Assembly (NCBI RefSeq): GCF_006715865.1
Contig: NZ_VFOA01000001.1
Location: 682,001 to 746,000 of the forward strand
Source: Cellulomonas sp. SLBN-39
GTDB lineage: Bacteria > Actinomycetota > Actinomycetes > Actinomycetales > Cellulomonadaceae
Length of the DNA stretch: 64,000 bases
Direction: 5' to 3'
Below are positions 2,705 to 6,926 of the stretch, one piece after another. Below the pieces are notes generated by a model. The model worked only from the letters and a program-made list of their open reading frames with translations, was not told where the DNA came from and did no database searches. Positions within the stretch are counted from its first letter, which is position 1; every line of letters begins with the position of its first letter. The position numbers and the translations under genes were made by a program.

Positions 2705-3571
2705 GTGGGACGCGCCGACGGGTTCGCCGGCCAGCGGCTGTGCGTGGTGCCGCGGCCCCGGGTCGCCGCCGCGCTGACCCGCGCACCGACCCGCCGGCTG
2801 CTCGTCACCGACGCCGGCGTGTTCACCCGGGCCCGCGACCACCTGCGACGACGCCCCTCCGGCACCCCGGAGGCGGTGTGGCTGCTGTGCACCGCCGGCG
2901 CCGGCTGGGTCGACGTCGACGGCACGCGCACCGACGTCACCGCGGGCACGTGCGTCGTCCTGCCGCCGGGCGTGCCGCACGCGTACGGCGCCGACCGTGC
3001 CGACCCCTGGACGATCTGGTGGTGGCACACCCGCGGCTCCGACGTCGGCGACCTCGTGCGCGGCCTCGACGCGCCGCCCGGCCGGGCCGGGTCCGTCGCC
3101 GTGCGGACCCCCGAGCGGGCGGTGGCACTGGTGGACGAGATCGTCACCACCCTCGAGCGCGGGCAGCAGCCCGCGCACCTGGCGGCCGCCGCGGGGGTCG
3201 CGTGGCACCTGGCCACCTGGCTGGCCGCGCAGCGCACCGCCCCCGACCGCGGCACCCCCGTGGACCGGGCGCTGCGGCACCTCGACGAGCGCCTCGACCG
3301 CGACGTGGGGGTGGCCGAGCTCGCCGCGCTCGTCGGCGTCTCCCCCTCCCACCTGGGCGCGCTGGTGCGGGCCGCGACGGGCGGCGGCGTGCTCGCGTAC
3401 CGCACGGCGGCACGCATGGCCCGCGCCCGGCACCTGCTCGACACCACCGACGCCCCGGTCGCCGAGGTCGCGCGCGCGGTCGGGTACGACGACCCCCTGT
3501 ACTTCTCGCGCCGGTTCCGGCGCACGCACGGCACCAGCCCCACCGCGTACCGCGCGGAGCACAAGGGCTGA
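2705..3571 (+). CDS. AraC-family transcriptional regulator
   Basis: 288 aa, GTG start at 2705 preceded by a GAGGGGG ribosome-binding site. The N-terminal half is a cupin-like ligand-sensing domain (TAGAGWVDVDGTRTDVTAG, then VVLPPGVPHAYGA). The C-terminal ~100 residues are a double helix-turn-helix of the AraC/XylS type (VAELAALVGVSPSHLGALV and VAEVARAVGYDDPLYFSRRF, ending TSPTAYR). Members of this layout bind a sugar and activate a neighbouring operon. It is divergent from the DUF5107 gene, its most likely target; the 97-bp gap would hold the operators. The effector is unknown. Confidence 0.9.
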   Translation: MGRADGFAGQRLCVVPRPRVAAALTRAPTRRLLVTDAGVFTRARDHLRRRPSGTPEAVWLLCTAGAGWVDVDGTRTDVTAGTCVVLPPGVPHAYGADRADPWTIWWWHTRGSDVGDLVRGLDAPPGRAGSVAVRTPERAVALVDEIVTTLERGQQPAHLAAAAGVAWHLATWLAAQRTAPDRGTPVDRALRHLDERLDRDVGVAELAALVGVSPSHLGALVRAATGGGVLAYRTAARMARARHLLDTTDAPVAEVARAVGYDDPLYFSRRFRRTHGTSPTAYRAEHKG

Positions 3572-3641: not shown

Positions 3642-3800
3642 TCAGCGGATCGCCGACTTGCAGCAGGGCGACAGCACGACGACCGACCCCGCGGCAGGCA
3701 CGGCGGGGCCGGCGGCCGCGGCCGGAGCGGCCGCGGCGGGAACCGCGGCGCCGAGGACGGCGAGCGTGGCGACGGCGAGGGAGACGAGGGACTTGCGCAT
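3642..3800 (-). CDS. small secreted Pro-Cys-Cys-Lys peptide, copy 1 (last of four)
   Basis: 52 aa, ATG start (3800) with a strong GGAGG site. MRKSLVSLAVATLAVLGA is a Sec-type signal sequence, followed by an Ala/Pro linker and the tail LSPCCKSAIR. It is one of four tandem paralogues (3642-4577, all minus strand) that share the signal sequence, the untranslated leader and the tail, but vary in the linker. The two vicinal cysteines are the only ones in the protein. I know of no described family that matches. Possible roles are a processed signalling peptide or a metal/thiol-binding peptide. That it is a real gene is supported by paralogue conservation; the function is inference. Confidence 0.75.
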   Translation of the reverse strand: MRKSLVSLAVATLAVLGAAVPAAAAPAAAAGPAVPAAGSVVVLSPCCKSAIR

Positions 3801-3827
3801 GACGACCTCCGGAAGGGCGGGACGGGC

Positions 3828-3901
3828 GGGGACGGGGCGAGCGGCGAGGGGACGGGCGGGGACGGGACGGGCGCCGGCGGGACGGGCGCCGGCGGGACGG
3901 G
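3828..3901. repeat. GGACGGG-type low-complexity repeat, including an exact 15-bp tandem duplication
   Basis: The spacer between peptide genes 1 and 2 is built of overlapping GGACGGG units. It includes two exact copies of a 15-bp unit (3871-3885 and 3886-3900). A looser version of the same run occurs between copies 2 and 3 (about 4095-4130). It probably reflects duplication by slippage or recombination within the peptide array. Confidence 0.75.
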
Positions 3902-3919
3902 CGGTCGTGGGCACGACCG

Positions 3920-4081
3920 TCATCGGATCGCCTGCTTGCAGCACGGGGACGCGAGGACGACGCCCGTCACCGGTGCGACCACGGACGTCCCGGACGGGGC
4001 CGGCGCGGACGCGGCGGCGGGGGCGGCAGCACCCAGCACGGCGAGCGTGGCGACGGCGAGCGAGACGAGGGACTTGCGCAT
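3920..4081 (-). CDS. small secreted Pro-Cys-Cys-Lys peptide, copy 2
   Basis: 53 aa, ATG start (4081) with the same CGGAGGTCGTC leader as copies 1 and 3. The signal sequence MRKSLVSLAVATLAVLGA is identical to copy 1. A linker rich in Pro, Ala, Ser and Val is followed by the tail LASPCCKQAIR. Residues VLA just before SPCC fit a signal-peptidase -3/-1 rule, so a nonapeptide beginning SPCCKQ could in principle be released, although the hydrophobic core lies further upstream. Copies 2 and 3 are closest to each other in the linker (SVVAPVTG is shared). Function unknown. Confidence 0.75.
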   Translation of the reverse strand: MRKSLVSLAVATLAVLGAAAPAAASAPAPSGTSVVAPVTGVVLASPCCKQAIR

Positions 4082-4212
4082 GACGACCTCCGGAAGGACG
4101 GGACGAGCAGGGACGGGGCGAGCAAGGACGGGAGCGCCGTGGCGACCCGCGGGGGTGGGACGGGCTGTCGCGCGACGGGAGCCGGTGCGAGGTGCGCTCG
4201 TGGTCGCGACCG

Positions 4213-4380
4213 TCACCGGATCGCCTGCTTGCAGCACGGCGAGGCGAGGACGGCACCCGTGACCGGTGCGACCACGGACGGGCCGGACGCGGGCGCGGCG
4301 GGCGACGCCGCGGCGGCGGGAGCGCCGGCACCCAGGACGGCGAGAGCGACGACGGCGAACGAGACGAGGGACTTGCGCAT
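4213..4380 (-). CDS. small secreted Pro-Cys-Cys-Lys peptide, copy 3
   Basis: 55 aa, ATG start (4380) with a GGAGG site. The signal sequence is a slightly diverged MRKSLVSFAVVALAVLGA. The linker contains SVVAPVTG and the tail is LASPCCKQAIR, identical to copy 2. The coding ends of copies 2 and 3 are also nearly identical at the DNA level (the GGATCGCCTGCTTGCAGCAC block), showing recent duplication or gene conversion. It probably belongs to the transcript starting upstream of copy 4. Function unknown. Confidence 0.75.
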   Translation of the reverse strand: MRKSLVSFAVVALAVLGAGAPAAAASPAAPASGPSVVAPVTGAVLASPCCKQAIR

Positions 4381-4451
4381 GACGACCTCCGGGAGAACGG
4401 GACGAACCGGGACGGGACGGGCAGCGGCAGCGGTGCTGCGCGGGGCGGGGA

Positions 4452-4577
4452 TCACTGCCCGGCGGACTTGCAGCACGGGCTCGCCAGCACCTGCTCGGGG
4501 GCGTGCGAGACGACGCCCCCGGCGAGGCCGAGGGCGGTGACGGTGGCGACGAGCACGGCGACGACGGACGACTTCAT
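4452..4577 (-). CDS. small secreted Pro-Cys-Cys-Lys peptide, copy 4 (promoter-proximal)
   Basis: 41 aa, ATG start (4577) after GAAGGAGATCCCC, the best ribosome-binding site of the array. It is the most diverged copy: signal MKSSVVAVLVATVTALGLAG, no long linker, and tail LASPCCKSAGQ. Here signal-peptidase cleavage after VLA would give a signal of normal length (32 residues) and a nine-residue product SPCCKSAGQ, which supports the idea that the CC tail is the active part. It is first in the array and carries the promoter. The XRE/TPR regulator lies 338 bp upstream on the same strand. Function unknown. Confidence 0.75.
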   Translation of the reverse strand: MKSSVVAVLVATVTALGLAGGVVSHAPEQVLASPCCKSAGQ

Positions 4578-4620
4578 GGGGATCTCCTTCGGGCGGGCCG
4601 GACGTTCCGGCTCCTCCCGC

Positions 4621-4649
4621 ATGGTCCCCAGGGCATCTCATGGGTGCAA
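4621..4649 (-). promoter_or_regulatory. sigma-70-type promoter of the peptide array
   Basis: Read on the minus strand: TTGCAC (4649-4644), a 17-nt spacer, then GACCAT (4626-4621). The predicted start of transcription is near 4614, giving a ~37-nt leader with the GAAGGAG site before copy 4. It was found by eye. Confidence 0.5.
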
Positions 4650-4660
4650 TGACTGTGGCC

Positions 4661-4670
4661 AGAGGCCTCT
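4661..4670. promoter_or_regulatory. palindrome AGAGGCCTCT upstream of the peptide promoter
   Basis: A perfect 10-bp palindrome whose centre lies about 51 bp upstream of the predicted start of transcription, just beyond the -35 box. This is where activators usually bind. The adjacent XRE/TPR protein is the natural candidate to bind it. A weak relative (AGAGGGGCCT) occurs at 6289-6298 near the start of that regulator gene. Confidence 0.4.
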
Positions 4671-4760
4671 AGACATCACTCGGGCGCACCTGTGCAGGCG
4701 GACGACTGACCGCATCGTGGGCACGGGACGACCCCCGCCGCCCGGCCGCGGGCACGACGA

Positions 4761-4793
4761 CGCACCCGCCCGGGCATCGCCCGGACGGGTGCG
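4761..4793. terminator. hairpin in the 4578-4915 intergenic region
   Basis: CGCACCCG (4761-4768) pairs with CGGGTGCG (4786-4793), continued by CCGGGC/GCCCGG around an ATC loop, with one unpaired base on each side. It is a second candidate stop signal after the regulator gene. The 338-bp gap holds this hairpin, the stronger one at 4835, and the peptide promoter; no coding sequence was seen in it. Confidence 0.4.
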
Positions 4794-4834
4794 TGGAAGG
4801 GGGCACGTGCGTCCGCGTCGGCGGACGGCACGAC

Positions 4835-4872
4835 GCGGGGGCCCGCGCGCATCGGTGCGCGCGGGCCCCCGC
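4835..4872 (-). terminator. strong hairpin terminator after the XRE/TPR gene
   Basis: A perfect 16-bp stem (4835-4850 with 4857-4872) around a 6-nt loop, 44 bp downstream of the stop codon of the regulator gene. There is no U-tract, as is common in actinomycetes. It separates regulator transcription from the peptide array, which has its own promoter. Confidence 0.7.
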
Positions 4873-4915
4873 GGGACTGCTCAGCGCCGGGTCCGGCGCA
4901 CGGGTCGGCGCCGGG

Positions 4916-6277
4916 TCAGCGCACGGGGTGGAACGCGCTCACGGGCGTCGGGCCGAGCAGCGTCGGGCGCACCCCCACACGGGCCGCCGTCAGCGCCCGC
5001 CGGTACGCCAGCGCGACCTCCTGCGCGTCGTCGCCCGCCTCGCGCAGCGTGTCCCCGAGCCGGCGCCACAGCGCCGCCGCGGGCCGCCCCGTGGCCACCG
5101 TGTCGAGCAGGTCCGCCGAGACGCGCAGCGCCTTGATCGCCCCGGGCCCGTCACCGGACGCCGCCAGCGCGGCCCCGAGCGCCGCGTGCGCGGACGCCGC
5201 GTCCCGCCGCTGACCGCCGGCCAGCAGCTCCGCCGCGTCCTGCGCAGCCGTGACCGCCTCGTCGACGCGCCCCAGCGCGAGCAGCGCCCGCGAGCGCACC
5301 GTGGCCGCGCGGGCCAGCTCGACGCGGGACTCGTCCAGCTCCAGGGCGGCGCGGGACGCGTCGAGGTCGGCGAGCGCCGCCTCGGGGCGCGGCGGCTCGA
5401 CCGCGAGCAGCAGGTGCGCACGGTCCAGGCGCAGACGCGGCACGTCACGGTCGACCTCGTCGGCGCCCGAGAGCGCCAGGGCGGCGTCGATCTGCTCGAC
5501 GGCCTCCTGCGGGCGCCCCACGGCCTCCAGCACGAACGCGAGGTTCCAGCGCACGGACGACAGGCCGCGCGCCGACCCGTGGGCGGCGGCCCGCTCCAGC
5601 AGCGTCCGGGACCGCACGAGGGCGTAGGTGACGTCGCCACGGGTGACGTAGGCCCACACGAGCGTGGACTCCAGGCGCAGCAGGGCGTCGGTCGCGTCGG
5701 CACCGTCGGCGACGGCCGCCAGCAGCTCCTCCCCGCGCGCGACGGCCCGGTGCGGCTCCCCCGCCTCGGTGAGGGCCATGACCAGGCGCGTGGCGGCGTA
5801 CGCGGCGTCCGCGAACCGGCGGGCCGCGACGAGGTCGGCCGCGGTGCGCTCGAGCAGGCCGCACGACGCCTCGAGCTCGCCGGCCAGGTCGAGGGCCTCG
5901 GCGTGCGCGAGCCGCACGCGGGCGGCCGCGTCGACGTCCAGCGGGGCCAGGTCGACCTGCGCGAGCACCTGGGCGGCCGCGGCGGGCTGCCCGACGCGGT
6001 GCAGGCGACGGGCGTGGTCGAGGGCGGCGCGCACGACCCGGGCCGACGCGGACTCCTCGCCCTCGAGCAGGTGGTCGACGGTCACGCCGAGCGCACCGGC
6101 GACGCGGGACAGCGCGAGACGGCCCGGGGCTCGGGAGCCGCGCTCGAGGTGGGAGACGTAGCTGGCGTGCACGCCCGAGGCGCGGGCGAGCTCGGCCTGG
6201 CTCAGGCCCGCGCGCTCGCGGGCATCACGAAGTCGACGACTGACAGGGTGCACGAGCACACAGTAAGCAACACCCAT
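4916..6277 (-). CDS. XRE-type HTH regulator with a long TPR-like region
   Basis: 453 aa from the ATG at 6277. A GTG at 6253 lies 6 nt after TACTGT on the minus strand and would give a leaderless start 8 residues shorter. Residues ~12-70 are an XRE helix-turn-helix (LRDARERAGLSQAELARASG, then VHASYVSHLERGSRAPG). The remaining ~380 residues are amphipathic helical repeats (LAHAEALDLAGELEASCGLL, ALLALGRVDEAVTAAQDAAE). HTH plus TPR is the layout of RRNPP peptide-pheromone receptors in Firmicutes, but also of many uncharacterised actinobacterial regulators. Four small secreted peptides follow directly downstream, making a peptide-sensing role attractive. The family call is firm; the ligand is inference. 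Confidence 0.85.
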   Translation of the reverse strand: MGVAYCVLVHPVSRRLRDARERAGLSQAELARASGVHASYVSHLERGSRAPGRLALSRVAGALGVTVDHLLEGEESASARVVRAALDHARRLHRVGQPAAAAQVLAQVDLAPLDVDAAARVRLAHAEALDLAGELEASCGLLERTAADLVAARRFADAAYAATRLVMALTEAGEPHRAVARGEELLAAVADGADATDALLRLESTLVWAYVTRGDVTYALVRSRTLLERAAAHGSARGLSSVRWNLAFVLEAVGRPQEAVEQIDAALALSGADEVDRDVPRLRLDRAHLLLAVEPPRPEAALADLDASRAALELDESRVELARAATVRSRALLALGRVDEAVTAAQDAAELLAGGQRRDAASAHAALGAALAASGDGPGAIKALRVSADLLDTVATGRPAAALWRRLGDTLREAGDDAQEVALAYRRALTAARVGVRPTLLGPTPVSAFHPVR

Positions 6278-6416
6278 GTCACACGGAAAGAGGGGCCTGA
6301 CACCTCCACCCGTCCGCCGCCCGGTCTGCGCAGGTCCTCCCGGTCCCGGGCGCGGTCCCGCCGGACGGCCCGTGCTCGCCAGGACCGTGACGGACCGCCG
6401 TGCGAGGATCGGGCGC

Positions 6417-6926
6417 ATGACGACCGAGCACGAGACCGTCGCCCCCGCCGCTGCCGCCCCGGCCGGGGCCGACGCGCCCGCCGAGGCGGCCCCGGACCCC
6501 CTGGCCAACGCCGGTGACACGCTCCTGTGGCTCGAGCGGACGGGCACGCGCCGCTACACCGGGCGCTCGTCGCGCGGGGCCGAGGTGCTGATCGGGTCGG
6601 TCGGCGACGAGGGCGCGTTCAGCCCGGGCGAGCTGCTGAAGATCGCGCTGGGCGCGTGCACGGGTCTGTCGTCGGACGCGGCGCTGGCCCGTCGCCTCGG
6701 CGACGACGTGACCGTGACGATCCGCGTGGGCGGCCTGGCGCACCCCACCGAGGACCGGTACCCGGCGCTGACGGAGGAGCTCGAGGTCGACCTGTCCTCG
6801 CTCGAGCCCGACGCGCGCGAGCGGCTGCTGACGGTGGTGCACCGCGCGGTCGACCAGCACTGCACCGTGGGGCGCACGCTCGAGCACGGTGCGACCACCA
6901 CGCTCACGGTGACCGGGGAGCGCTGA
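6417..6926 (+). CDS. OsmC-family protein
   Basis: 169 aa from the ATG at 6417. The N-terminal ~35 residues are a low-complexity Ala/Pro/Glu stretch. The OsmC core follows, with the two cysteines expected for a thiol-dependent peroxidase: GACTG (about residue 80) and QHCTVG (about residue 150). Family members reduce organic hydroperoxides in the cytoplasm. The stop codon overlaps the next ATG (TGATG), so the two genes are likely cotranscribed. Confidence 0.85.
   Translation: MTTEHETVAPAAAAPAGADAPAEAAPDPLANAGDTLLWLERTGTRRYTGRSSRGAEVLIGSVGDEGAFSPGELLKIALGACTGLSSDAALARRLGDDVTVTIRVGGLAHPTEDRYPALTEELEVDLSSLEPDARERLLTVVHRAVDQHCTVGRTLEHGATTTLTVTGER

Follow-up and report, generated by a model that had tools for sequence, protein, structure and literature searches.

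Analysis of a 64,000-nucleotide stretch of the genome of Cellulomonas sp. SLBN-39 (contig NZ_VFOA01000001.1, positions 682,001–746,000), referred to here as the window, revealed an actinobacterial locus that is likely to encode an RRNPP-type circuit with a peptide autoinducer. On its minus strand, the gene for a regulator with an XRE-type helix-turn-helix (HTH) domain and tetratricopeptide repeats (TPR) is followed by four tandem genes for short propeptides. The proposal is built on these genes, on the conservation of their pairing in other genomes, on an operator-like element at the peptide promoter and on the predicted fold of the regulator, all read from sequence. We infer that this regulator has the peptides as its ligands, a reading that is far stronger than it would be from one genome. 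The five genes are:

4916..6253, minus strand: XRE-HTH and TPR regulator, putative peptide receptor; 445 residues from a GTG start, supported by hidden Markov model matches, 27 orthologues and an AlphaFold2 model
4452..4577, minus strand: propeptide gene 1, 41 residues, tail ...PEQVLASPCCKSAGQ; counterpart in genome G029
4213..4380, minus strand: propeptide gene 2, 55 residues, tail ...VLASPCCKQAIR; counterpart in G029
3920..4081, minus strand: propeptide gene 3, 53 residues, tail ...VLASPCCKQAIR; counterpart in G029
3642..3800, minus strand: propeptide gene 4, 52 residues, tail ...VVLSPCCKSAIR; counterpart in G029

In Pfam, the regulator matches HTH_3 with an E-value of 1.2e-14 and TPR_2 with 1.2e-5, the latter under its cut-off. 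The earlier note on this DNA had correctly described an HTH and helical-repeat protein on this strand but had begun it at 6277. At all 27 orthologous loci a GTG occupies the position aligned to 6253, with the motif V[HNS]P[VL]S, just 3′ of a −10-like hexamer; in-frame starts further upstream are present in many of these loci. The GTG at 6253 is probably the start, rather than 6277, and because it is kept in 27/27 loci a few bases past the hexamer, a leaderless start is likely.

Reading of the open reading frames (ORFs) bore out the four tandem, same-strand peptides with a common signal sequence and PCCK tail that had been noted earlier. The N-terminus of each peptide is basic and leads into a hydrophobic core, and an Ala-rich stretch precedes the tail; from this appearance Sec export is predicted. 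The tails share the pattern ...S-P-C-C-K-x-A-x-x. In 14 within-clade peptide pairs, pooled and non-independent, the ratio of non-synonymous to synonymous substitution (dN/dS) is 0.31 in the tail and 0.53 in the signal part. These values and the conserved linkage to the regulator speak against chance ORFs. In the complete genome of the strain (4,147,780 bases), one search (query P0003) recovered the three longer paralogues and another all four, in each case at the window locus; the other matches of query P0003 in this genome were weak (E 0.05 or worse). The peptides scanned gave no Pfam or NCBIfam match above cut-off. A lipoprotein reading was rejected on the grounds that Pro immediately preceding Cys does not agree with the lipobox consensus; one class B peptide (see below) has a sub-threshold LPAM_1 match limited to its first 16 residues.

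Pairing of regulator and peptide in other genomes

Of the 81 Cellulomonas genomes compared, 27 encode an orthologous regulator, which we term class A (57–62% identity, one 98%). A downstream scan made with no requirement for cysteine found PCCK peptide genes at all 27 loci: a single gene at 18, two at 6, four at 2 and five at 1 (L073), with 101–395 nt separating the regulator stop codon from the first peptide gene. A scan of named genomes with the regulator returned 19 loci, of which three are weak HTH-only matches and 16 are regulators, all from Cellulomonas and including those of C. humilata, C. xylanilytica, C. terrae, C. iranensis, C. phragmiteti, C. massiliensis and C. telluris. All 16 are accompanied by a peptide and by the promoter octamer described below; 15 were already among the class A genomes counted, C. 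telluris being additional.

A paralogous regulator of about 40% identity (37–43%), class B, is present in most genomes of the genus and in three other genera of the family; 33 copies come from 31 loci. In a scan again made without a cysteine requirement, 29 of the 33 have a signal-peptide gene just upstream, encoding a tail in which a cysteine pair is followed mostly by Lys or Arg. At the two tandem extra copies, the same cysteine-pair peptide sits between both regulators. The notion that class B lacks a peptide was ruled out as the product of a downstream-only view, the peptide being upstream. The genome of SLBN-39 itself holds a class B pair (L085, G000:C1:3145000-3157000) with a peptide ending ...GGIGCCKNAL, and two paralogous circuits may coexist in it. 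Regulators kept without a peptide nearby, an outcome that the earlier note had named as contrary to its proposal, are in the minority: all 27 orthologues and that of C. telluris have one, as do 29 of the 33 class B copies, while the exceptions are given below.

To judge from more distant homologues, the pairing is confined neither to tandem arrays nor to Cellulomonas. At E ≤ 1e-40 the regulator profile matched 22 of the 396 order-level genomes, half of which (11) belong to other families, and it matched 65 of 394 genomes of the class, in 30 of 138 genera, at E ≤ 1e-45. Sixty-one distant loci were compared: 12 of the 14 that the order search gave in other families, and 49 of the 89 that the class search gave in genomes other than that of SLBN-39. 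With relaxed settings, 49 of the 61 have a small signal-like ORF at most 900 nt away whose final ~14 residues include a cysteine pair; strict settings that require a ribosome-binding site gave a cysteine-pair peptide in 47. The 49 peptides lie divergently upstream (38), on the opposite strand downstream (9) or on the same strand upstream (2), and the linkage persists through these changes of gene order. By comparison, 515 kb of longer loci away from the regulators contain one (strict) or two (relaxed) such ORFs, corresponding to 0.003–0.007 expected per locus, and another version of the scan found 79 in 145 kb near regulators versus 1 in 535 kb of the remainder of these loci. When the 12 order loci were scanned without a cysteine requirement, a cysteine-pair peptide was found in each, the pair in L175 lying 34 residues from the end. 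In family f38 the peptides terminate exactly at the pair.

Plasmid records extend the pattern. Cysteine-pair peptides were found near the regulator in a Streptomyces goshikiensis plasmid (L238; WP_008741297.1, ...KDIPLCC), in Streptomyces sp. ADI95-16, in Nonomuraea gerenzanensis (...DAGCC) and, 1.9 kb from the regulator, in Streptomyces sp. NBC_01707.

Several further observations concern these loci. In L238 a second small secreted-looking protein (4381-4593, WP_008741296.1), with no cysteine pair, follows the peptide, and Streptomyces sp. ADI95-16 has a near-identical protein. Contig G294:C158 (L174, L185 and L187) carries four receptor-like matches in tandem, with a cysteine-pair peptide beside L174. 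An unannotated phage record from human faecal samples (MT836207.1) encodes a partial homologue of the distant receptor L172, with 31% identity over 62%.

Operator, predicted fold and neighbouring genes

The following DNA signals were located around the regulator and peptide genes:

6254..6300, minus strand: regulator promoter, −35-like TTTCCG and −10-like TACTGT (6260–6265) abutting the GTG; leaderless-looking, proposed from the comparison of 27 loci
4834..4873, minus strand: perfect 18-bp inverted repeat with a 4-nt loop, probable regulator terminator; from a repeat search, not called by the terminator scan
4760..4794, no strand assigned: another inverted repeat (16 bp, 94%), also in the regulator–peptide interval; from a repeat search
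4670..4675, minus strand: TGTCTA element in the upstream portion of the block conserved at peptide promoters; from the class A alignment
4637..4653, minus strand: operator-like GTCAT-N7-ATGAG, which includes the GTCATTGC octamer and overlaps the presumed −35; from the class A comparison
4621..4629, minus strand: GGGGACCAT, presumed −10 region of the peptide promoter; from the class A comparison
4578..4620, minus strand: 5′ untranslated region (UTR), a hairpin covarying across the genus and then a ribosome-binding site; from covariation analysis

A consensus scanner called no promoter here, and its sole terminator-like site lies elsewhere, at 6273–6287. The promoter block ahead of the peptides is conserved in 27/27 class A loci and, with the 18-bp inverted repeat, supports the separate terminator and promoter that had been suggested for the peptide array. 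Within this block all 27 loci have the octamer GTCATTGC at −76 to −84 relative to the first peptide gene, and it reads as the left half of a class B-type operator, which in the window would be GTCAT-TGCACCC-ATGAG. In class B the element GTCAY-N7-RTGAC, with at most one mismatch, closely precedes the regulator start in 26 of 29 promoters (0.0055 in shuffled sequence) and is present in the 300 nt ahead of the peptide in 29/29 (shuffled 0.0205), often twice, near −50 and −214. At class A peptide promoters the full operator is present with at most one mismatch in 15/27 (shuffled 0.0072) and with at most two in 25/27 (shuffled 0.11); in these counts, and in the comparison of neighbouring ORFs below, the row for the window (L000) is offset by 500 nt, and that of the near-identical L057 is correct. 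The promoter sequences quoted here for the window are the corrected ones. Twelve of the 27 class A regulator promoters also carry the operator with at most one mismatch. Its position over promoter elements suggests repression.

The 5′ UTR hairpin was examined in 19 of the 27 class A sequences. Overall, 93.4% of cells are paired, and 10 cells are changed on both sides versus 2.8 in shuffles, none of 500 of which scored as high; three pairs show both-side change (18 of 500 shuffles as high).

A confident AlphaFold2 model of the regulator, made from an input of 17 sequences (pLDDT 87.6, pTM 0.79), places the HTH helices in the first ~67 residues, followed by a superhelix of about nine helical hairpins. 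Pfam TPR matches are strong in homologues (L172, TPR_12, 3.1e-16; L085, TPR_2, 7.3e-9). Structural alignment with VIA-align superimposed the model on Rap–peptide complexes (8rte, Z 22.6, root-mean-square deviation (rmsd) 4.9, 324 residues aligned; 4gyo, Z 21.9, rmsd 6.7, 344 aligned) and on NprR (5dbk, Z 20.1, rmsd 6.0, 311 aligned; 4gpk with NprX, Z 18.8, rmsd 6.5, 302 aligned), and PlcR–PapR (3u3w) appears in the Foldseek list with an E-value of 2.6e-6. In a profile search of PDB sequences, the best 60 of 69 matches included no named RRNPP receptor, being mostly XRE-type HTH proteins and designed TPRs. In TPR proteins the helix-A residues line the concave groove. The presumed helix-A residues of the regulator, on our own helix assignment, are more conserved than those of helix B (mean entropy 1.62 versus 1.83, p 0.03), the most conserved A helices being 189–205, 228–244 and 271–284, with 390–406 similar. 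Because TPR folds are common, we take the predicted fold resemblance as support for peptide binding and not as proof of it.

As for other genes at the locus, no ORF cluster is common to all 27 class A loci, the clusters including spurious antisense ORFs and having been read mostly by eye. The gene most widely shared, in 22/27 loci and at varying distance downstream of the peptides, encodes a long protein whose C-terminal domain is nuclease-like (Pfam MTES_1575, PADLOC candidate PDC-S37; for example L068:7330-11925). As a regulated target it was discarded: it is also present in 12/12 genomes tested, seven of them without a class A regulator, and we therefore read it as background neighbourhood. 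A composite pattern for the class A promoter has a single match in each of 22 of the 27 class A genomes, by its coordinates at the peptide promoter, and none at all in the five further class A genomes or in three genomes without class A; it revealed no further targets. The bare operator pattern gave 23–40 sites per genome in six genomes, among the matches listed, against 1–4 for a reversed control. Because the motif is made of common codons, that control is unfair, and we infer no regulon from these sites. In the window, an AraC-family regulator (2705-3571, plus strand) converges with the peptide array, a linkage that, of the loci compared, G000 shares with G029 alone, and an OsmC-like gene (6414-6926, plus strand) diverges from the receptor.

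The proposed circuit and its alternatives

We propose that the propeptides, of ~40–55 residues, would be exported by Sec and cut by signal peptidase, possibly with other proteases, to a short C-terminal peptide with a vicinal cysteine pair (here ...SPCCKxAxx). The trimmed peptide would be re-imported, probably via an oligopeptide ABC transporter; seven SBP_bac_5 matches in the SLBN-39 genome make re-import possible and are no evidence of its use. Inside the cell it would bind the concave groove of the cytoplasmic TPR domain and alter the contact of the XRE domain with GTCAY-N7-RTGAC operators at the peptide promoter, where they overlap the presumed −35 in the window. In most class B loci and in part of class A, the regulator would also control its own promoter in this way, and the outcome would be feedback on peptide production. 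While the RRNPP layout and fold are well supported, the export, mature form, import and binding of the peptide, the direction of its effect and any further target genes are the putative parts of this scheme.

A number of observations weigh against it. Among the regulators, no cysteine-pair peptide was found for the diverged Cellulomonas homologues L138 and L139 (35–36% identity), and 12 of the 61 distant loci have no detected peptide, including L189 and L210, loci that end short upstream, and L175, with its pair far from the C-terminus; L185 and L187 show none, and neither do four of the eight plasmid loci examined (of 16 matches). Conversely, among the profile matches read as DNA in 221 family genomes, full-length PCCK peptides apart from a class A regulator were found in two Cellulomonas genomes only, G048 and G034, and these carry neither a class A nor a class B receptor. 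This bears on the other outcome that the earlier note had named as contrary to its proposal, peptide arrays widespread apart from the regulator; the peptide profile under-detects, having missed the peptides of G018, G077 and G033 and found that of G036 at E 0.016 only. The operator is missing at 15 of the 27 class A regulator promoters, that of the window included, and was not found in L170–L175, six of the ten distant loci tested. In the structural comparison, eukaryotic LGN scores slightly above Rap (4wnd, Z 24.5, rmsd 5.1, 313 aligned) and MalT on a par with it (1hz4, Z 21.9, rmsd 4.1, 312 aligned). Finally, no class-A-specific third gene, which would represent the regulated behaviour, was found among class A neighbours.

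Four other explanations were weighed. The first overlaps our own in mechanism: the re-imported peptide would report export capacity, extracellular proteolysis or redox state (thiols versus vicinal disulfide) rather than cell density. We consider this unlikely. In its favour, nothing in the tails is as constant as the cysteine pair, and at 18 of the 27 class A loci just one peptide gene lies beside its receptor; the tandem arrays with differing tails, four here and five in L073, fit signalling diversity equally well.

Rather unlikely, too, is the explanation that the regulator senses some other cue, such as a metabolite or stress, and that it controls the peptides as a secreted output, whether they act as antimicrobials, bind metals or thiols, or are effectors at the envelope, the pairing being that of a regulator with a dedicated target. 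A shared operator at the peptide promoter is equally expected on this explanation, cysteine pairs would suit metal or redox chemistry, and G048 and G034 have the peptide without the receptor. Against this, homologous regulators in many families are mostly paired with one class of peptide, the conserved tail comprises just the cysteine pair and a few neighbouring residues, and the TPR domain is close to those of peptide receptors.

We hold it very improbable that the small ORFs encode the precursor peptides of a natural product made by the ribosome and then modified by enzymes. Short precursors, tandem copies and cysteines would be in keeping with such a product, but the signal is Sec-like and not a typical leader, no modification enzyme was recognised among the neighbours shared by several class A loci (in clusters read mostly by eye), and no precursor family in Pfam or NCBIfam matched above cut-off. 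Chance adjacency of unrelated secreted peptides to a common type of regulator, which the earlier note had allowed for and which the abundance of XRE/TPR regulators in actinobacteria, with two in many of the genomes compared, might seem to favour, can in our view be set aside as refuted by the 27/27 and 29/33 linkage, the 79 versus 1 contrast in density and the shared operator.

The orphan PCCK genes of G048 and G034 (L083 and L084) lack the GTCATTGC block; that of G048 adjoins HxlR-like and DoxX-like genes, as labelled by eye.

Relation to known systems

The RRNPP(A) systems of Bacillota (PlcR–PapR, NprR–NprX, Rap–Phr, Rgg/ComR, PrgX and AimR) resemble the peptide circuit proposed here in that a propeptide with a signal peptide adjoins a TPR receptor of 250–500 residues, here one with an HTH domain. 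The window system differs from them in its host, a member of the Actinomycetota, in the vicinal cysteine pair of its tails, in having about nine TPR hairpins past the HTH, and in its gene orders, which are divergent, upstream or downstream among homologues, with a separate transcription unit in the window. Of the five computable features of RRNPP systems set out in a survey (PMC10075063), all but Sec export are found, and Sec export is predicted from the appearance of the sequences; receptor–propeptide adjacency is seen in 27/27, 29/33 and 49/61 loci. The propeptides, of 41–55 residues here and 38–55 across the 27 class A loci, are within the required 10–100 residues. Receptor length, 445 residues here and 430–445 across class A, is inside the RRNPP range of ~250–500; in 12 loci of other families it is 442–505, L184 (505) slightly exceeding that range.

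In the portions of these sources concerned, PMC10075063 surveys RRNPP systems of Firmicutes and viruses and gives the signals of Actinomycetota as typically small molecules, PMC9765709 is likewise a survey analysing Firmicutes, and a 2016 review (PMC4748050) names cyclic or modified peptides and gamma-butyrolactones as the signals of Actinobacteria, with the word RRNPP absent. Judged from the listings, searches of the open-licence PMC literature gave no paper on actinobacterial RRNPP-type peptide systems or cysteine-pair pheromones.

In NCBIfam, the nearest named actinobacterial family of TPR regulators is NsdA (NF053720, TPR-like, from Streptomyces), to which the homologue L190 has a weak profile match (32.4 bits, E 6.8e-8). 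This score and those of L172 (21.6 bits) and L085 (14.7 bits) all fall below the 75-bit cut-off, and the window regulator gives no match at E ≤ 1. RamB (NF038139) and other XRE regulators of actinobacteria share the N-terminal XRE HTH, residues 13–125 matching at 24 bits, which is far under the RamB cut-off of 700. We know of no exported-peptide partner for NsdA, nor of a peptide partner for RamB or the other XRE regulators. As far as its anatomy tells, the window system appears RRNPP-like, with the cysteine-pair tail as its hallmark, in a phylum for which we found no such system described.

We lean towards the view that the window represents a wide and so far undescribed family of peptide pheromones in Actinomycetota, in which cytoplasmic XRE–TPR receptors would be paired with Sec-exported peptides ending in or near a cysteine pair. 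Tails of the types PCCK, GCC[KR], ...MCC and ...WCC, at or near the C-terminus, would belong to it, and it would span Cellulomonas to Streptomyces and Nonomuraea as well as small genomes of 1.6–2.2 Mb (L232–L234). If this is true, the compact regulator–peptide pair, readable from the genome, would let both ligand and operator be predicted for many regulators that are so far unstudied, profile matches occurring in 30 of the 138 genera sampled in the class. It would also raise the chemical question of why the tails retain two adjacent cysteines, a pair that may make the signal redox-switchable.

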